Shown: positions 1 to 33,421 of the stretch, in pieces | Position numbering within the stretch: position 1 is the stretch's first letter | Layout of the letters: every line of letters begins with the position of its first letter | Assembly: GCA_029288035.1 (NCBI GenBank) | Contig: JARFPZ010000582.1 | Coordinates: 1 to 33,427 of the forward strand | Direction: 5' to 3' | Source: Desulfosarcina sp. | GTDB lineage: Bacteria > Desulfobacterota > Desulfobacteria > Desulfobacterales > JAFDCJ01 | Length of the DNA: 33,427 bases | Made by a program: the position numbers and the translations under genes | Notes under the pieces: generated by a model | Seen by the model: the letters and a program-made list of their open reading frames with translations, nothing else | Databases searched by the model: none | Told to the model about the DNA's origin: nothing

Positions 1-534
1 ATGAAACGCTTCCGTCAATGGAACAAAGGAGGCGGCATTTTCAAGCAGCTTTCTGTATCTCGATTCCTTCATGGCGGTAAGGAATTCCAGAAAGGTCATC
101 GGATATAGATGAAGAAAATTCACCTTCCCTACCGGAAAGGATCCAGGACCGGACATTTTCAACCCAAGCAGAGAGCCGGCCGCTACCATGTGGACATCGG
201 CCTGTTGTTCGGCAAAATACTTCAGCGAATTCAGGGCCCGATTTGAAATCTGTATTTCGTCGAAGAGAACCAGATCAGATTCCGGACGAATCTCTAAATT
301 CATATAAGTGGCAAGGTCTGCCAGTATTCGATCCGGATTCAAGTCATTTTGGAACAATTGGTCAAGACCGGAATTTTCTTCAAAGTTGCAATAAATCGTG
401 TTTCGGTATTCATTGCGGCCGAATTCTTTTAATATGAACGTTTTACCTGTTTGACGGGCACCTTGTAAAAGGAGTGGTTTTCTCCGCGAGGAGGATTTCC
501 ATTGCAATAATTTCGGATAGATATCTCTTTTCAT
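1..534 (-). CDS. AAA_14-type ATPase, N-terminal part (truncated by window edge)
   Basis: The reading frame opens at an ATG at 534 and runs off the window start, giving the first 178 residues. It has a clear Walker A (GARQTGKT, about residues 25-32) and a Walker B-like stretch (DLVLFDEIQ) about 85 residues later, the layout of AAA_14 ATPases that usually carry a C-terminal DUF4143 domain; that part would lie outside the window. Such proteins are typical accessory genes of anaerobes and archaea, and their cellular role is poorly known. The gene is separated from the transporter operon by 254 bases that hold a CRP-type palindrome. The family call rests on motifs and overall layout; no substrate or function can be assigned. 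Confidence 0.8.
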   Translation of the reverse strand, partial: MKRDIYPKLLQWKSSSRRKPLLLQGARQTGKTFILKEFGRNEYRNTIYCNFEENSGLDQLFQNDLNPDRILADLATYMNLEIRPESDLVLFDEIQISNRALNSLKYFAEQQADVHMVAAGSLLGLKMSGPGSFPVGKVNFLHLYPMTFLEFLTAMKESRYRKLLENAASFVPLTEAFH

Positions 535-619
535 AATAGAATACTTTGCCAGGAATCGGAGTTGCCGTCAAGACAATTCGTCCGACTTTTGTGGATCTAT
601 GCACATTATTGGTACGTAA

Positions 620-639
620 AATGTGATTATTATCACATT
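620..639. promoter_or_regulatory. CRP/FNR-type palindrome upstream of the AAA ATPase
   Basis: A perfect 20-base palindrome contains TGTGA, six bases, TCACA (622-637), which is the textbook CRP-family operator. It lies about 86 bases upstream of the ATG at 534, a distance usable for activation of the minus-strand gene. A second TCACATTATTGG-like half (CACATTATTGG at 602-612 and again at 634-644) repeats nearby. Which CRP/FNR-family protein would bind is unknown. Confidence 0.55.
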
Positions 640-698
640 ATTGGCAGCAATATTGCGGTTTAGCTTGTCAATTGGCGATGGTCATGGGTGAAATATGA

Positions 699-754
699 CA
701 TGGCCGCAAAAAGGCACAAAAAGCACAAAAAGCACAAAAAATTTTTCAGAGCTT
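699..754 (+). repeat. Inverted-repeat element, left copy
   Basis: About 55 bases beginning CATGGCCGCAAAAAGGCA and continuing with GCACAAAAA iterations and TTTCAGAGCTT are found again in opposite orientation at 3081-3132. The two copies flank the two permease genes. The left copy holds one more GCACAAAAA unit than the right one. Confidence 0.7.
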
Positions 755-788
755 GTGATTTGAATAGGCCACAAAGGAAATAAATCGA

Positions 789-1769
789 TCAATCCGGTCG
801 GTACGGTTTTCCCAGAGCAGACGGCGCCATCCCCGAAAAGAAGGCCAGAAGAGATTTGATGCGACTTTTGCCTTCCGCCCATATTAAAACGGATTCCTTC
901 TGGGCAAAAGACATAATGATCAGGGTGAATATCATCAGCGGAAACGGGGCTACCTGAAAAACCTGGGAAGGAACCGACGGCAACCACTCCTGAAAATAAA
1001 TTCCCAGGACCTGCAACAGCGAAAACAGGTAAGCACCGGCGGCTGCCTTAACCGGATGCCAGCCCCCGAAAATCACCAGGGCCAGTGCGATCCAGCCGGT
1101 TCCTTCCGCCCCCTGAGGCCGCCCCCATCCGGGCTTGGTGGCCAGGGAAAAGGTGGCGCCGGCGAGCCCCACGAGTAAGCCACCGCAAACCGCATACAGC
1201 AACTGCAGCTTCTGGGGATTGATCCCCCTGGCATAAGATGCCCGGGGGTGTTCGCCCACGGATCTTAATTTCAGGCCGTGGGGGGTATGGTAGATGTACC
1301 ACCAGCTGATTGCGATGATAAACAGGCTCAGATACACGGGTAGATTGTGGTTGAATAAAATATCACCCAATAATGGAATTTCTCCCAGCAAGGGAATCGG
1401 CAGGGGGGATACCTGCGGCCCCTGCAGTCGCGAATAGGGGTTGCCGATAAAATAAGCAAGATCCCGGGCCATTAAAGTTAACACAAACCCCACGGCAACC
1501 TGATTCTGATTAAGATAGATGCTGAACACCGCCACGGTGGCCGCCACCAGGGCACCGACAATTGCCCCGCAGACAAATCCCATCATCAGGCTGTTGGTCT
1601 CAAAGGCAACAGCAAAGGCTGCCATGGCACTCAGCAAGATAGAACCGTCCAGCGACAGGTTGATGAGACCCGCTTTCTCTGTAATGGTCTCGCCCACCGC
1701 CGCCAGCACAATCGGCGCCGCCCCGGCAACAACACTGGCAAACAGTATGGTTAGGTTGAGTTCAAACAT
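789..1769 (-). CDS. BMP-type ABC transporter permease (second permease of operon)
   Basis: This 326-residue, strongly hydrophobic protein is an inner-membrane permease of the BPL_transp_2/RbsC-like group that pairs with BMP (PnrA/Med-like) binding proteins, as in the YufQ/NupQ nucleoside transporters. The N-terminus (hydrophobic start, then AAVGETITEKAGLINLSLDGS) matches the family signature GE-x(2)-TE(R/K)AG-x-(L/I)NL. It is the last gene of the minus-strand operon binding protein-ATPase-permease-permease. The spacer to the preceding permease is made almost wholly of heptanucleotide arrays, and no convincing Shine-Dalgarno is seen before the ATG. Substrate is inferred only from the family (nucleosides or related small molecules). 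Confidence 0.88.
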   Translation of the reverse strand: MFELNLTILFASVVAGAAPIVLAAVGETITEKAGLINLSLDGSILLSAMAAFAVAFETNSLMMGFVCGAIVGALVAATVAVFSIYLNQNQVAVGFVLTLMARDLAYFIGNPYSRLQGPQVSPLPIPLLGEIPLLGDILFNHNLPVYLSLFIIAISWWYIYHTPHGLKLRSVGEHPRASYARGINPQKLQLLYAVCGGLLVGLAGATFSLATKPGWGRPQGAEGTGWIALALVIFGGWHPVKAAAGAYLFSLLQVLGIYFQEWLPSVPSQVFQVAPFPLMIFTLIIMSFAQKESVLIWAEGKSRIKSLLAFFSGMAPSALGKPYRPD

Positions 1770-1783
1770 TGTTCAACAAATTC

Positions 1784-1853
1784 TGTCCTCTGACTTCTAT
1801 CATCCGTCATCTATCATCCATCTTCTGTCATCTGCCCTCCGTCATCTGTCATC
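1784..1853 (-). repeat. Heptanucleotide array between the two permease genes
   Basis: Read on the minus strand, this is ten consecutive 7-base units with exact spacing, all beginning GA, for example GATGACA, GATGATA and GAGGACA. It occupies most of the spacer between the permease genes and is non-coding. Confidence 0.8.
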
Positions 1854-1859
1854 CTACCC

Positions 1860-1901
1860 TTTGCCTCATGCCCTGCGCCCTATGCCCTCTGCGCTGTGCG
1901 C
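1860..1901 (-). repeat. Second heptanucleotide array at the permease 3' end
   Basis: Six consecutive 7-base units on the minus strand with a different consensus (GCGCAGA, GGGCATA and relatives). It encodes the last dozen residues and stop of the upstream permease, so the C-terminus of that protein seems to have been built or replaced by the array. Confidence 0.75.
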
Positions 1902-2888
1902 CAACCGCCCGCGCCAGGCATGCACACCCAGGGTAGCCAGAACCAGGGCCCCCTGGATGACGCCGCTCAAGGATGAATCCACCTGCAGCACCATCGGCAA
2001 CTGAATACTGCCGACATTCAAGCAGGCAAAGAAAAAGGCCACCAAAGGCACCAGCCAAATTTTGTAGTTGGACAACATCACAACCAGCAGCGCCAGGTAA
2101 CCGTAATTGCTGGAGATGGCAGGCAGTAGTCGATGGTAAACCCCGCTCACTTGAAGGCTTCCAGCCAGACCGGCGAAACCCCCGGCAAAAATCATGGCAA
2201 GAATCATGTAGCGGCCGGGTTTGAGTCTAAAAAGGAACGCCGCCTTGGGGTTGTTTCCAATGGCTTTTAAATTCAAACCAATTCGGGTGTAACGCACCAA
2301 CACCCCGGTCAAGATCAGGGAAACGACGACAAGCGCCAGCGCAAGGGGCGAAAGGCGAATAGAGGCCAGATGGGGCAACCACAATTTAACGGGAAACGTC
2401 TCGGTGCCGCTCATGGATGCCACCCCCGGTCGCCGCCAGGGACCGAAAATCAGCCACAGAATGATACCCTGGGCAACGAAGTTGAGCCCCAGGCCGGCAA
2501 ATATTTCGTTGACGCCACCCTTAGTTTTTAAAAAACCGGCGACCAGAGCCCAAAGCGCACCCCCCGCCATCCCGGCCAGCATCGATGCACCCAAAAAAAA
2601 AGCGGCGCCGTTGCCTTGGGTTCCAAAACGAAGCAGGGCAGTGGTAAACACCGCCCCCATCATGACCTGGCCTTCAACACCGATGTTCCACAACCCAATT
2701 CGGAAGGTAAACAACAGACCACAACCGCAAAGGGTGAGCGGTATCCAGGCCTTGGTTACATGGGCAAATTTATTCCAGGACCCTAAAGATCCTTTTAAAA
2801 TATAGTAGTAGGCACTAAACGGCGGGGCGCCGGCAAGCAGCAACACCAGGGTGGTGAAAAAAAATACCGCAAGAAGCGTCAGCAGCAT
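1866..2888 (-). CDS. BMP-type ABC transporter permease (first permease of operon)
   Basis: A polytopic inner-membrane permease (about 340 residues from the ATG at 2888) of the YufP/NupP type. Family features are the small-residue rich helices, the GLWNIGVEGQVMMGAV segment and KTKGGVNEIFAGLGLN, which correspond to the conserved G-x-NIG-EGQ and (H)EV-x(2)-IM-LN regions of these permeases. The frame stays open to an ATG at 2966, but the extra 26 codons fall mostly in an intergenic repeat and heptad array that recurs elsewhere, so the internal ATG is preferred; neither start has a good ribosome site. The C-terminus runs into another heptad array. It partners with the permease downstream and the ATPase upstream. 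Confidence 0.85.
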   Translation of the reverse strand: MLLTLLAVFFFTTLVLLLAGAPPFSAYYYILKGSLGSWNKFAHVTKAWIPLTLCGCGLLFTFRIGLWNIGVEGQVMMGAVFTTALLRFGTQGNGAAFFLGASMLAGMAGGALWALVAGFLKTKGGVNEIFAGLGLNFVAQGIILWLIFGPWRRPGVASMSGTETFPVKLWLPHLASIRLSPLALALVVVSLILTGVLVRYTRIGLNLKAIGNNPKAAFLFRLKPGRYMILAMIFAGGFAGLAGSLQVSGVYHRLLPAISSNYGYLALLVVMLSNYKIWLVPLVAFFFACLNVGSIQLPMVLQVDSSLSGVIQGALVLATLGVHAWRGRLAHSAEGIGRRA

Positions 2889-2910
2889 GTGGCGGAATTG
2901 GCCAAAAATT

Positions 2911-3025
2911 ATTGAAGATTGTCGATTGAAGATTGAAGATTTGTGGATGTCGCTTCGCTCCGTCATATTTATAATCTTTTTCTATGATTATTCCGCAGCA
3001 GGCGGACCTTAAGTATTCAATCTTG
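2911..3025. repeat. Heptad-bracketed repeat element, copy 1
   Basis: Heptads of the type ATTGAAG (2911-2945) lead into an ~85-base core from 2938 with TGTCGCTTCGCTCCGTCA, an A/T-rich middle, CCGCAGCAGGCGG and ACCTTAA, followed by inverse-type heptads (GTATTCA, ATCTTGA). A second copy in the same orientation lies at 3144-3252. It sits at the 5' end of the first permease gene. Confidence 0.75.
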
Positions 3026-3080
3026 ATGAACTTGTAAAAAATCAAAATTTCGATTTTTGTTCAATGAAACCCATTGAACT

Positions 3081-3132
3081 TAAGAGCCCTGAAATTTTAA
3101 TTTTGTGCTTTTTATGCCTTTTTGCGGCCATA
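3081..3132 (-). repeat. Inverted-repeat element, right copy
   Basis: Reverse complement of the element at 699-754: on the minus strand it reads ATATGGCCGCAAAAAGGCAT, then AAAAAGCACAAAA and TTTCAGGGCTCTTA. It lies between the two heptad-bracketed repeats in the ATPase-permease spacer. Confidence 0.7.
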
Positions 3133-3143
3133 TCAAAATCTCA

Positions 3144-3251
3144 AATTTGTGGGTGTCACTTCGCTCCGCCAATTTTATGATCCTTTTTACAATGGATCCG
3201 CCGCAGGCAAACCTTAAATCTTCAATATTCATTCTTCAATATTCAATACTC
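3144..3251. repeat. Heptad-bracketed repeat element, copy 2
   Basis: Same core as 2938-3023 (TGTCACTTCGCTCCGCCA, A/T-rich middle, CCGCCGCAGGC, ACCTTAA), ending in clean heptads ATCTTCA and ATATTCA (3218-3251) that run up to the stop codon of the ATPase gene. The left heptads are degenerate. Confidence 0.75.
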
Positions 3252-28183: not shown

Positions 28184-28210
28184 TTGACAGTTATTATTCT
28201 GTCATATGGT
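28184..28210 (+). promoter_or_regulatory. Operator and promoter of the toxin-antitoxin operon
   Basis: TGACAG and CTGTCA form a perfect inverted repeat with an 8-base centre (28185-28204). It overlaps a consensus -35 TTGACA (28184-28189), as expected for autorepression by an antitoxin; a -10-like TATGGT (28205-28210) follows after 15 bases, a short spacing. Confidence 0.5.
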
Positions 28211-28264
28211 GGTTTGGTATTTATATTTCGCCAAGTATTACCAGTGGAAAAAAGGGAGATTACC

Positions 28265-28672
28265 ATGGAAGAGATCAGAAGCATTAAAGTTAAAACCAAT
28301 AATTTAAATGAAATGATCAGTATGATCAAAAAAGGCCTGCCGGCCGAGACGGTCGTCACCCTTTCCACCTCTCTTGATATGTCCATCAAAGCAACTGCTG
28401 AACTCACCAAAATCGCGGAAAGCACTCTGGCCCGGCGCCGGCGGGAAAAAGGCAAATTAAGGGCGGGTGAATCCGACCGGGTTGTTCGAATCGCACGGCT
28501 GCGAGATAGAGCCGTTGCGGTTTTAGAAGAGGAACAACGGGCCAACCGTTGGCTCAAAACACCTTTAAGAGCGCTAAATGGCTGCACCCCATTAGAATAT
28601 GCTGAATCGGAGTTGGGCGCCCAGGAGGTTATGAATTTGCTCGGTCGGCTTGAACACGGTGTCTTTTCATGA
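28265..28672 (+). CDS. Xre/MbcA/ParS-type antitoxin (DUF2384)
   Basis: 135 residues from the ATG at 28265, with GGGAG six bases before. An N-terminal Xre-like helical domain (MISMIKKGLPAETVVTLSTSLDMS) is followed by the MbcA/ParS/Xre C-terminal domain (RVVRIARLRDRAVAVLEEEQRANRWLKTPLRALNGCTPLEYA and EVMNLLGRLEHGVFS), the standard RES antitoxin layout. It binds and silences the RES toxin and normally represses its own promoter; a matching operator is at 28185-28204. It overlaps the toxin gene by four bases (ATGA). Confidence 0.93.
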   Translation: MEEIRSIKVKTNNLNEMISMIKKGLPAETVVTLSTSLDMSIKATAELTKIAESTLARRRREKGKLRAGESDRVVRIARLRDRAVAVLEEEQRANRWLKTPLRALNGCTPLEYAESELGAQEVMNLLGRLEHGVFS

Positions 28673-29136
28673 TTACCGCTTGGCGAATTGTAAAGAAAAA
28701 ACATTCTGCCGGCGCTTTTGATGGAGACGGTGCCAGAACGTACGGGGGCCGCTGGAATAGCCTTGGAACCGCTATGGTTTACACCTCTGACTATTTAGCG
28801 ACAGCCGCTTTGGAATTAATGGTGAACATGATCGATTATTCTGAAATGTTTCAGTACTACGTTCGCTTTAGAGTTGATATCCCTTCCAGCCTGATTACCG
28901 AATTAAAATCTAAAAATATACCGAAAACCTGGCAACAAAGTCCTGCCCCAGCAGACACCCAGACTATCGGGGACGACTGGGTAAAAAATCGGACTTCCGC
29001 AGTACTAAAGACACCCAGTGCCGTGATATCCGAACATCACTCTTATTTACTCAATCCGAACCACAAGGACTTTTCTAAAATTAAAATCAAAAAACCAAGC
29101 CCTTTCAGCTTCGATTCCAGATTGTTAAAGCCCTAA
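28669..29136 (+). CDS. RES-domain toxin
   Basis: 155 residues with the complete RES signature: Arg28 in GARTYGGRWNS, Tyr38 in MVYTSDYLA, Glu49 in TAALELMVN, and Ser117 in LKTPSAVI, followed by HHSYLLNPNHKDF. RES toxins (MbcT, Res, ParT) act in the cytoplasm, most by consuming NAD+ (phosphorylase or hydrolase activity) or by ADP-ribosylation. Starts at the ATG overlapping the antitoxin stop, so the two are translationally coupled. Length is normal and no inactivating change is seen. Confidence 0.94.
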   Translation: MITAWRIVKKKHSAGAFDGDGARTYGGRWNSLGTAMVYTSDYLATAALELMVNMIDYSEMFQYYVRFRVDIPSSLITELKSKNIPKTWQQSPAPADTQTIGDDWVKNRTSAVLKTPSAVISEHHSYLLNPNHKDFSKIKIKKPSPFSFDSRLLKP

Positions 29137-29496: not shown

Positions 29497-30573
29497 ATGA
29501 CGCAAAGCAAAACCAAGGGTGAAAAAAATCGCGAGGACGAGATCGAAGCCGCATCCAATCAAACGCCGAAACAGCCTGAAACTTCAAACGGAAGAGTGGT
29601 GGGTGTCGACATCGGAACCTCAAAAATCGTTTTCTCAGAGAAAAAAAATGGGAACATTGAGTTCAACTCTCAACGCAATGCCTTTATCTCAGTGGATTAT
29701 TCCAAATTCACAGAGAAAATATTGAATCAGAATAAGATAAAATACCATAAGATCAACAATTCCTTGATTGTATTCGGCGATGGGGCCGAAATCTTCGCCA
29801 ATATGCTCAATACAGAAACCCGACGTCCCATGCGCCAGGGTTTGCTGAATCCAAAAGAATCATATTCTGTTGAAATTATTAAAAAAATTCTAAATGAATT
29901 GGTAGAATCCTCTGGGGGTTCTGATTCTAAAATTAATTTTTCCATACCCGACCCGCCCAAAGGTTCCGAGACGGATATCATCTATCATGAAACCGTTCTA
30001 GCGCGTCATCTAACAGAAAAAGGATATACCAGCAGAAGCATTAACGAGGGATTGGCGGTTGTTTTTTCCGAATTGGAAGATGAAAGTTTCACCGGTCTGG
30101 GCATCAGCGCCGGCGGTGGCATGTGCAATGTTTGTCTAGCTTATCTATCCGTCCCGCTCGTCTCTTTCAGTATCAATAAGGGAGGCGATTATATCGACGA
30201 CGCGACGGCCTCCGTCACCGGCACCATCAATACTCGCGTACGAAGTATCAAGGAAAACGGTTTTGATCTCCAAAAAAAGCCTAATAATGATATCGAGGAT
30301 GCCTTACATATATACTATGATGACCTGATTTTGAGTCTGGTAAAAGCCCTCAAAGAAAGCCTTGTTCAGACATCCACCGCGCTAAAGATAGACCGCCCGG
30401 TACCCATCGTCTTAAGTGGCGGCACGGCCAAAGTACGTGGTTTCAAAGAACGATTTGAGCATTTCTTGAAAACCGAGGAAATTCCTTTGGATTTCAGCAA
30501 GGTTCGCATTGCGGAAGATCCGCTCTATGCCACGGCAAAGGGGGCTCTGATCGCAGCCATGAATGAAAATTAG
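29497..30573 (+). CDS. Actin-fold ATPase (MreB/MamK/ParM-like) with altered phosphate-2 loop
   Basis: 358 residues, of which the first ~30 are a charged, disordered tail. The actin/Hsp70 signature is complete in outline: phosphate 1 GVDIGTSK (Asp38), connect-1 region QGLLNPKESYS, SINEGLAVVF corresponding to the E-P-x-A-A catalytic segment, phosphate 2 GISAGGGMCNV (about 202-212), and adenosine motif VLSGGTAKVRG (about 305-315). In phosphate 2 the usual catalytic/Mg-binding Asp is Ser204, while the GGG is kept. It is thus a filament-type or chaperone-type actin-like protein with a possible loss or slowing of hydrolysis. It forms an operon with the membrane amidase-like protein 32 bases downstream. 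The subfamily is not recognised. Confidence 0.8.
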   Translation: MTQSKTKGEKNREDEIEAASNQTPKQPETSNGRVVGVDIGTSKIVFSEKKNGNIEFNSQRNAFISVDYSKFTEKILNQNKIKYHKINNSLIVFGDGAEIFANMLNTETRRPMRQGLLNPKESYSVEIIKKILNELVESSGGSDSKINFSIPDPPKGSETDIIYHETVLARHLTEKGYTSRSINEGLAVVFSELEDESFTGLGISAGGGMCNVCLAYLSVPLVSFSINKGGDYIDDATASVTGTINTRVRSIKENGFDLQKKPNNDIEDALHIYYDDLILSLVKALKESLVQTSTALKIDRPVPIVLSGGTAKVRGFKERFEHFLKTEEIPLDFSKVRIAEDPLYATAKGALIAAMNEN

Positions 30574-30605: not shown

Positions 30606-32864
30606 ATGGACACAACTGTCTCCTTAAAATTGCCGCCGAAAAACTATCGGCGAACTATCGAAGAGCTGTCCGTCGTCATCCCTGATCCAGCTTTAAAGCT
30701 GAAATTTCTAAAACAGGCCATCAATGAGCATCAAAAGATATCTGCACCATACAAGCTTTATCCTCCAATTGCCGAAATCACCTTCCGAAAAAGGCTATTG
30801 GATAATGCTGAAAATATTTGCCCCGGTAGTAAAAAGGCTGCGAAACAACTTATCCGCAAAGGCGTCATCTCTGCTCCCGGTAATCGGTGGCGGTGGCTCT
30901 CCAAATTATACTATCTATTTGTTTCAGCAATTCTAATACTCTTTATTTTTAGACTTGGTACAGCGGTTATTCCTTTAGTAAGAAACTTCAATTTCGCCAC
31001 CCTCATTAATTTGAGCGATCAGCAGGCCGAAACAGCAATTACAAAAATTATCATCCGAAAGCCGATACGTTTTTCCCCACGATCCGGGACCGGAAAAAGC
31101 CCGAAATCATTTATTTTCCAATCTGCAAATTATCAAAATGATGCTGAACAGATCTCATGGTATTATAAAAATCCAATATTAATGGCCCTGACGTCTCAAG
31201 AGGTCTCAAACTCCACATCAAAACCAATTACACAAAAGCAGTTATTGCTTTCCCAGACGACTACCAGAGGAGAACATCCGCCTAAATCTGCCGTCAAATC
31301 TGTAAAACATCAGAATGAGCCCGGGCTGGTTATAAGTTATTATAAAAATCCCATTTTGACAGCCCTGACGACTGAGCAAATTAAAAATTCCAGGTCAAGG
31401 CCTATCCCCCGGAAGCCGTTATTATCTTTTCAGCCGCAAAGCAGAGGAAGCCAGAAGCCGTTAACCGACATCAACCCTGCTGACCAGCAAAAAGCATCCG
31501 ATTTGATTATCACTTATTTTAAGAATCCCATTTTGAGGGCCCTGACGTCTCAACAAACAAAAAATTCCAAATCAGGTCCTCCCTTATTGTCTTCTCAGCC
31601 GCAGAACAGGGGAAACCAGCCGCCTTTGCCTGCCATCAAACCTCCAGAACACCAATATGATCTCGAGCCGGCACTGAATTATTTTAAGAACCCTATCTTG
31701 ATGGCCTTGATTTCTAAACAGTTCTTAAATCCCGCCTCGGAGCCTATCACCCAAAAGACGTTGGTGTCTTCTCAGCCGCAGAGTAGTCGAAACCATCTAT
31801 CTCTAACCATCACCGAACCTGCAGAACATCAAAATAAATCTGTGCAGGTTCCCAAATATCTAAAAGATCCCATTTGGTTGGTGGAAAAAACAGCCGATCG
31901 TGAATTTTACAGCAATCGACTGCAGATAATCACAACATACACAATTCCCAACATACCCCGCGAATACTATCGATTCTCCAGGAATTCCAATTATTCGCCG
32001 GCGATCGGCAAGATTACAGACAGGGTTTCAGGTATCGTGTATCATGCCTCGGAAAGCGATCTGTACCCTTTCATGCCGGAGATGAATCACTCGATTCTGA
32101 ATTACAGCAAACGACTGATCAAATATCTCCTGCGCAAAAAGTCCTATCATTATTTCATTGATCGATTCGGGCGTGTCTATCGACTGGTTCAAGAAGACCA
32201 CGCCGCATTTCATGCAGGGAAATCGATCTGGGCAGATGATGAGGCAATTTATCTTAACCTGAACCATGCCTTCATTGGTATTTGTTTTGAGGGCAAAGAT
32301 TTTCAAGAAATCGACACGAAAAAGCAGAAAAAGAACCACCGCGCAAATCCCAAATCTCCCGTCCTTAAACCAACGGGTATCTCATCGTTCAATGAGGCTC
32401 AGCTACGATCGGGGAAAGAGTTGACCGATTGGCTCAGAGTAAAATACAATATTTCCCAGCAAAATTGTGTGCCCCATGCCTTAATTTCAGTCAACACCAA
32501 GCGAATGTTAATCGGTTATCATCTGGATCTATCCCGCGGGTTCCCCTTTGCTAGGCTCGGACTGACTGATAAATACCTGGAACCCTTGCCTTCAATGGTC
32601 GAATTTGGGTTTCGTTATGACAAATATTTTGAAAATATATTCAACGGTAACCTTTGGCGCGGAATTGGTTTCTCTGAGGAAATCTTACGGCGAAGAGCCC
32701 GGAATTCAGGTATGAGTTTTGCTGAATATCGTAATAGTTTGCAGCAAAGATTTACCCGATATAAGGAATGGAATCAAAAATTGGTTAAGAAAAAAGACCA
32801 GCATACAAAAACCTCCCAAAAAACAATGAGCAAAGAAGTTCAGCTGAGCAGACGAATAAGGTAG
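30606..32864 (+). CDS. Membrane-anchored repeat protein with C-terminal amidase-2/PGRP-like domain
   Basis: 752 residues. The N-terminus (1-97) is basic and cytoplasmic; a single membrane helix follows (about 100-122, YYLFVSAILILFIFRLG), then a probably periplasmic region with five copies of a [YF]-[YFL]-K-[ND]-P-I-L-x-A-L motif at residues 186, 245, 304, 359 and 418 (spacing 59, 59, 55, 59), rich in Ser, Gln and Pro. The C-terminal ~270 residues resemble N-acetylmuramoyl-L-alanine amidase-2/PGRP, with His480 in VYHASES, His536 in FHAGKS, and His639 in GYHLDLSRG. The third metal ligand (Asp/Cys eight to ten residues after His639) is not visible, so catalysis is uncertain and a wall-binding role is possible. 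A basic tail ends the protein. The operon partner is the actin-fold ATPase. Confidence 0.82.
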   Translation: MDTTVSLKLPPKNYRRTIEELSVVIPDPALKLKFLKQAINEHQKISAPYKLYPPIAEITFRKRLLDNAENICPGSKKAAKQLIRKGVISAPGNRWRWLSKLYYLFVSAILILFIFRLGTAVIPLVRNFNFATLINLSDQQAETAITKIIIRKPIRFSPRSGTGKSPKSFIFQSANYQNDAEQISWYYKNPILMALTSQEVSNSTSKPITQKQLLLSQTTTRGEHPPKSAVKSVKHQNEPGLVISYYKNPILTALTTEQIKNSRSRPIPRKPLLSFQPQSRGSQKPLTDINPADQQKASDLIITYFKNPILRALTSQQTKNSKSGPPLLSSQPQNRGNQPPLPAIKPPEHQYDLEPALNYFKNPILMALISKQFLNPASEPITQKTLVSSQPQSSRNHLSLTITEPAEHQNKSVQVPKYLKDPIWLVEKTADREFYSNRLQIITTYTIPNIPREYYRFSRNSNYSPAIGKITDRVSGIVYHASESDLYPFMPEMNHSILNYSKRLIKYLLRKKSYHYFIDRFGRVYRLVQEDHAAFHAGKSIWADDEAIYLNLNHAFIGICFEGKDFQEIDTKKQKKNHRANPKSPVLKPTGISSFNEAQLRSGKELTDWLRVKYNISQQNCVPHALISVNTKRMLIGYHLDLSRGFPFARLGLTDKYLEPLPSMVEFGFRYDKYFENIFNGNLWRGIGFSEEILRRRARNSGMSFAEYRNSLQQRFTRYKEWNQKLVKKKDQHTKTSQKTMSKEVQLSRRIR
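31161..31859 (+). repeat. In-frame tandem repeats inside the amidase-like gene
   Basis: Four full units of 177, 177, 165 and 177 bases plus the start of a fifth. The core motif is strongly conserved while the linker diverges, indicating selection for the motif. Confidence 0.9.
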
Positions 32865-33064: not shown

Positions 33065-33145
33065 ATCGATTGCATGGATTCCAAAAGACTGGGGCTCCCA
33101 TTCTTTTTATGCTATGTTCCAAAATTGGGTAATCAGGAAATGAAT

Positions 33146-33421
33146 ATGACAAATACAGATTTGATATACACACTCATTGCCATCGTGGTCCCTTTGGTAG
33201 AGCTGCTTGGAATTCTGGCAGCCGTTCATGCAATCATGAACGCTCGGACCTCCCAGGGCGCAATTGCCTGGGCCATATCATTGATCACCTTTCCGTGGCT
33301 GGCTTTGATTTTATATGCTGTTTTAGGACGCAATAAATTCAAAGGCTATGCTGGCTGCGGATTTTTCCCGCAGCCGCCCGGTTACAATCGAAGATTATAC
33401 CAGGAAATCATTTTTCTTTAA
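33146..33421 (+). CDS. PLDc_N (cardiolipin-synthase-like N-terminal) protein, apparently truncated
   Basis: 91 residues from the ATG at 33146 (AGGAA six bases upstream). Two membrane helices (TNTDLIYTLIAIVVPLVELL and GAIAWAISLITFPWLALILY) and the segment RTSQGAIAWAISLITFPWLA-x-GRNKFKGY match the start of cardiolipin synthases, which normally continue with an Ala-Arg-Arg linker and two HKD phospholipase D domains. After FKGY the sequence departs (AGCGFFPQPPGYNRR) and a stop follows at 33419, seven bases before the window end. A frameshift, a degraded gene or a stand-alone PLDc_N protein are all possible; neither alternative frame gives an obvious continuation. Confidence 0.6.
   Translation: MTNTDLIYTLIAIVVPLVELLGILAAVHAIMNARTSQGAIAWAISLITFPWLALILYAVLGRNKFKGYAGCGFFPQPPGYNRRLYQEIIFL

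Follow-up and report, generated by a model that had tools for sequence, protein, structure and literature searches.

The window, by which we mean the whole 33,427-nucleotide stretch of DNA analysed here, encodes a trans-membrane peptidoglycan amidase (P0001) with a repeat array in its periplasmic linker. We favour, as the probable explanation, that one lineage multiplied, in tandem, the periplasmic tether of an amidase paired with an actin, because the units are homologous to one another, upstream copies of their motif were found in 3 of 25 proteins, and the junction leading into the amidase domain was found in all 25.

P0001 (752 aa, 30606-32864) lies with all of its parts on the forward strand and has the predicted layout of a bitopic protein, with Amidase_2 as its C-terminal domain. 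The first ~98 residues form a helical region, predicted to be cytoplasmic (30606-30881), with the motif IPDPALKLKFL at residues 25-35, which was kept in relatives. This region is followed by one transmembrane helix at residues ~99-125 (30900-30980; hydropathy maximum at 104-122, model helix at 93-127), a linker at residues ~123-417 enriched in S, P and Q, and the Amidase_2 domain at residues 473-625 by Pfam bounds (32022-32480). The match to PF01510 (E 3.8e-16, 60 bits against a curated cut-off of 26) was the only Pfam match of P0001, and PF01510 was also matched by 24/24 aligned relatives. H480 and H624 inside the match, and H639 and D641 just past the domain end, were invariant in 24/24 aligned sequences; the zinc-binding residues are presumably among these four, by analogy with AmiD and AmpD and on a partial mapping. 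A PDB sequence search with P0001 gave no match at 0.01, and Foldseek placed the model of the domain nearest to the solved folds of AmpDh2, AmpD and AmiD (E 9.4e-7 to 6e-6). By profile cut-off, predicted fold and conserved putative metal-binding histidines, the C-terminal domain can be assigned to Amidase_2. The AlphaFold model was mostly confident for the N-terminal region (helices at pLDDT ~90) and for the amidase domain, and fell below pLDDT 50 at residues 124-411; the linker, array included, is thus predicted to be disordered.

Four repeat units were identified on the forward strand by DNA repeats and unit alignment: unit 1 (YYKNPIL, 59 codons) at 31161-31337, unit 2 (YYKNPIL, 59 codons) at 31338-31514, unit 3 (YFKNPIL, 55 codons with a four-codon gap) at 31515-31679, and unit 4 (YFKNPIL, 59 codons) at 31680-31856. 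Together with a fifth motif, the starts lie at residues 186, 245, 304, 359 and 418, with gaps of 59, 59, 55 and 59 residues, exactly as an earlier note on this DNA had listed them. This arrangement is far beyond shuffled chance: when residues 126-424 were shuffled 20,000 times, no shuffle gave a single match, compared with five observed, and self-identity at offset 59 was 66, compared with a maximum of 37 in 1,000 shuffles. The note had described five YYKNPIL motifs; five related motifs are present, but the literal YYKNPIL occurs only twice, YFKNPIL occurs twice and YLKDPIW once, giving the consensus Y[YFL]K[ND]PI[LW]. It had also described the intervening stretches as diverged but fixed in length. 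The spacing stands, but units 1-4 are in fact tandem repeats of ~177 bp, homologous over their full length (62-72% nucleotide and 42-55% amino acid identity between units), and the DNA repeat families D1 and D2 span the motif as well as the intervening stretch. The 55-residue spacing is ascribed to the four-codon gap in unit 3, because the 80%-identical protein of locus L026 shows 59, 59, 59 and 59. The 45 residues before motif 1 matched the other units weakly (scores 24-39, shuffled 99% point 33), which makes them at best a weak candidate for the ancestral single copy. The motif cores had a pLDDT of ~30 and no confident structure; the model drew short helices at 3/4 upstream cores, but with very low confidence, and these were given no weight.

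The fifth motif is of another kind. Its position, 31857-31877, shows that the span previously given for the array, ending at 31859, stopped inside it. Over its seven codons it is alike to the other copies at 13-16 of 21 nucleotides, and past them the likeness ends (10-14 of 39). Alignment of the relatives placed it in a conserved junction, YLKDPIWLVEKTAD (31857-31898, forward strand), which opens into the amidase domain. The junction Y..PIWLVEKT was found before the amidase domain in the window protein and in all 24 relatives, and W424 was invariant in 24/24 aligned sequences. Judged from these sequences, motif 5 is a conserved lead-in to the amidase, unlike units 1-4. In locus L027, from genome G183, the junction FLQNPIW resembles that protein's own repeats, FLQNPIL, just as repeats and junction are both Y.K[ND]P in the window and both FLQNP in G183.

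The 24 relatives came from a scan of species genomes, 14 of them assigned to Desulfobacterales from their title or similarity, the other 10 being from Acidobacteriota. Nine of the 14 Desulfobacterales loci share contigs with our survey within the order (G183, G159, G034, G175, G091, G054, G191, G017 and G128), and with these overlapping contigs the two sets are non-independent. L032-L035 are close relatives of one another. L036 was omitted from the alignment for a masked stretch, and contributed its N-terminal part and linker to the linker and motif comparisons; L045 lacks its 5' end, and L026 is cut off by the end of its contig. L026 (positions 1-3209 of a 3.2-kb contig) encodes a protein 80% identical to that of the window. 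The MAG it belongs to carries the title Cyclobacteriaceae, where, from its sequence, the contig is probably mis-binned.

Upstream copies plus junction numbered 4+1 in the window, 4+1 in L026 and 3+1 in L027. Outside this trio no relative (0/22) had an upstream copy, and the single regular-expression match among those 22, in L029, was its own junction. Among homologues, motif and spacing were kept in two close relatives, at 59-60 residues and with a drifted motif in one of them, and were absent in the other 22/22. Drift was seen within the trio, with 4, 4 and 3 upstream copies, spacings of 55-60 and YYKNPIL against FLQNPIL. In the unit tree the G183 units clustered together (97 and 99 ultrafast bootstrap), which, with the matching junction, points to an array that turns over within lineages, as duplication or conversion would give.

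Linkers ranged from 27 to 304 residues over the 25 proteins. Those of the 22 array-free relatives were 27-75 residues long except for two, L036 and L029, at ~170 (170 and 171), and a linker of 59-75 residues, about one period, was found in 9/12 array-free Desulfobacterales loci. The array proteins had linkers of 300, 304 and 247 residues, that is, whole units plus 64-68. On the plain reading of these one-period linkers and remainders, a one-unit linker was multiplied. L029 and L036 reached their length without 59-residue repeats, so length was also gained through other sequence. The L029 linker (171 residues) had a weak self-match at offset 18 (19 identities, shuffling p 0.003, one of 22 tested).

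Selection on the cores, taken as the first 11 residues of each unit, was compared within the trio. Between the window and L026, cores were identical at 40/44 residues and the stretches between them at 111/188 (Fisher p 3.5e-5), with dN/dS of 0.10 and 0.58, respectively, at equal dS (0.43 and 0.45). The core value is as low as those of the folded parts, 0.12 for the N-terminal region and 0.17 for the amidase. Against G183, cores were 57.6% identical and the rest 31.7%, with dN/dS of 0.35 and 0.78, respectively. Positions N4, P5, L7, L10 and N18 were invariant in 11/11 units of the three sequences. The constraint counts against a purely inert spacer and bears out the earlier note in so far as it denied a generic linker: the segment evolves under constraint. 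The cores probably also serve as short sticky motifs.

The gene 32 bases 5' of the amidase gene encodes a Volactin-family actin-like ATPase, P0002 (358 aa, 29497-30573, forward strand), which matched PF25216 at E 2.7e-83 (280.6 bits, curated cut-off 35), as did 24/24 actins examined. Its model has an actin fold (pLDDT 87) with MreB, MamK and BeeR as best solved matches, and P0002 is predicted to be cytoplasmic, across the membrane from the array. MamK itself was ruled out (42.5 bits, cut-off 400), as was the genome's MreB, since separate strong MreB matches were found in 10/10 amidase-bearing genomes (~490-500 bits in nine; in G054 a fragment scored 283 bits). A magnetosome association was likewise rejected, with MamK over the cut-off in 0/10 amidase-bearing genomes (G000 included), some of which are incomplete. 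Directly 5' of the actin gene lies a gene pair for an Xre-family antitoxin and a RES-domain toxin (28184-29136). At the contig end, a short ORF (33074-33421) scored 28.3 bits against 23.3 for PLDc_N and may be where a gene for a phospholipase-D-like protein or a cardiolipin synthase begins.

A Volactin-family actin was found beside the amidase, on the same strand, in 23/23 loci with a readable neighbourhood in Desulfobacterales and Acidobacteriota; the 24th relative, L026, has 629 bases upstream of the amidase on its short contig. The actin gene comes first in Desulfobacterales, whereas in Acidobacteriota it follows the amidase gene. Among 194 genomes of the order, the long amidase was present in 10, a close P0002 relative (E <1e-120) in the same 10, and a more distant one in 15 further genomes. 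Within the window's genus (8 genomes), the amidase was present in two and PF25216 in the same two. A search with P0001 across 395 genomes of the phylum (E 1e-15) returned the window alone; because the draw re-used few pair-carrying genomes, the pair is to be read as rare, not absent. In the actin tree the deep branches are poorly supported (0.2 for Acidobacteriota and 0.724 for Desulfobacterales). The order also has ten amidase-free actins of the Volactin family; at 40-47% identity to P0002, they formed their own branch (support 0.977). Another branch of the family in the order was seen at L057 (7091-8161) and L058 (2509-3579), with a large ORF of ~740 aa coming next in both cases.

A pattern around IPDPALKLKFL was found in the first 150 residues of 24/25 proteins, the one miss being the 5'-truncated L045, while shuffled N termini matched it at 1.6%; the pattern was written after the sequences had been seen, so the shuffle contrast is descriptive. 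This predicted cytoplasmic motif, like the C-terminal enzyme, is conserved across two phyla, and for that reason it is the best candidate for an actin contact. We infer that the N terminus, through xDPxxKLxFL, may contact the neighbouring Volactin-family actin; gene neighbourhood, co-occurrence and the conserved motif are what point to the actin-amidase tie.

On the multiplied-tether explanation, P0001 would span the inner membrane with its N terminus touching the actin, and the disordered linker would give the amidase access to the cell wall while the actin holds the anchor. More linker units would give a longer tether and a wider area cut per anchored enzyme. As a guess, the constrained NPIL..AL cores might form transient short helices lending weak self- or partner-stickiness. 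The spacing in L026, 59 four times, is tighter than length alone needs and counts against this explanation.

Other explanations were weighed against the same data. The earlier note had proposed a structural ruler or a series of docking sites across the periplasm, which the constrained core would suit, as would the even spacing seen in the window and in L026. The refuting condition named in that note, homologues that fail to keep motif and spacing, came out against the proposal. Such a device, if important to the protein family, sits badly with the 22 relatives lacking upstream copies, with linkers of such different lengths, with copy number and spacing varying inside the lineage, and with the predicted disorder of the array. 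An extended chain measures about 0.36 nm per residue; one 59-residue unit would thus span ~21 nm, already about the width of the periplasm, and four or five are not ruler-sized. We therefore consider this proposal improbable as the main explanation. The observation behind it was partly confirmed, and the note's interpretation was partly supported. Docking of the array to the neighbouring ATPase was set aside, since the array is periplasmic by predicted topology and the ATPase has a cytoplasmic actin fold. There is likewise only a small chance that slippage or unequal crossing-over multiplied a length-tolerant linker neutrally; the great variability of linker length and the between-core dN/dS of 0.58 to 0.78 would fit, but the constraint on the cores would not.

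The same constraint, with five invariant positions per unit, would favour an array of stickers in which the cores copy the amidase's junction strand (Y..PI), attach to the surface that this strand binds or to one another, and cluster or tune the enzyme, length being secondary. The joint change of core and junction between G183 and the window fits this as well, but gene conversion alone accounts for it. Beyond PI the copies are unrelated to the junction, and so are without the junction-making W and strand, and the cores have no confident structure. We regard this explanation as unlikely, and return to the multiplied tether as the preferred one.

Bacterial actins guide wall synthesis, and in our literature searches no trans-membrane wall amidase turned up with an actin dedicated to it. 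AmiD, AmpD and AmpDh2 share fold and family PF01510 with the C-terminal domain of P0001; unlike P0001, they have, to our knowledge, no transmembrane anchor, cytoplasmic region or actin neighbour. The volactin of Haloferax volcanii shares PF25216 with P0002, but P0002 is bacterial and paired with a peptidoglycan amidase, and archaea of that kind have, as far as we know, no peptidoglycan. Volactin is reported to form dynamic filaments and to influence cell shape (PMC10869688).

The nearest parallel in mode of action would be bactofilin BacA with LmdC, in which, according to PMC10945521, a cytoskeletal polymer gene also adjoins the gene of a bitopic peptidoglycan hydrolase. Like P0001, LmdC has a short cytoplasmic N terminus, one transmembrane helix, a periplasmic spacer and a C-terminal hydrolase, and its N terminus binds the BacA polymer directly, as that account describes (PMC10945521). 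In the system described there, however, the polymer is a bactofilin and not actin-like, the enzyme is an M23 endopeptidase and not an Amidase_2, and the spacer is a coiled coil, whereas here it is predicted to be disordered and is repeated (PMC10945521). Membership in the bactofilin-LmdC module was rejected, with P0001 matching Amidase_2 only and P0002 being an actin; the parallel is in working mode only.

Mad28 of magnetotactic bacteria is reported to bind liposomes or membrane and to localise by curvature (PMC12713370). Two of the Volactin-family actins (PF25216) with 40-47% identity to P0002, at L050 (9574-10761) and L051 (6932-8116), lie a few kb from a MamK over the cut-off and, by this place, are probably Mad28; Mad28 would then fall in the volactin family. 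Unlike Mad28, the amidase-paired actins occur in genomes without such a MamK, and the ten amidase-free actins form a branch of their own. If P0002 shared the membrane and curvature behaviour of Mad28, the amidase would, speculatively, be placed by membrane shape.

The conserved gene pair is weightier than the motif array, which alone is a modest repeat expansion. From sequence comparison, the pair looks like an undescribed actin-to-amidase trans-membrane module. We propose tentatively, as a possibility short of an even chance, that in two phyla an actin of the Volactin/Mad28 type, present besides MreB, steers a membrane-spanning amidase directly through xDPxxKLxFL, and that the linker, turned into a sticky array by multiplication in one lineage, determines how far the enzyme reaches. 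If true, the module would be the actin counterpart of bactofilin-LmdC. The array also provides a natural length series: within a single order, the linkers of this protein family run from 29 to 304 residues. Furthermore, the likely Mad28, archaeal volactin and a bacterial branch without magnetosome association fall into one Pfam family, which would give this class of actins a testable partner.
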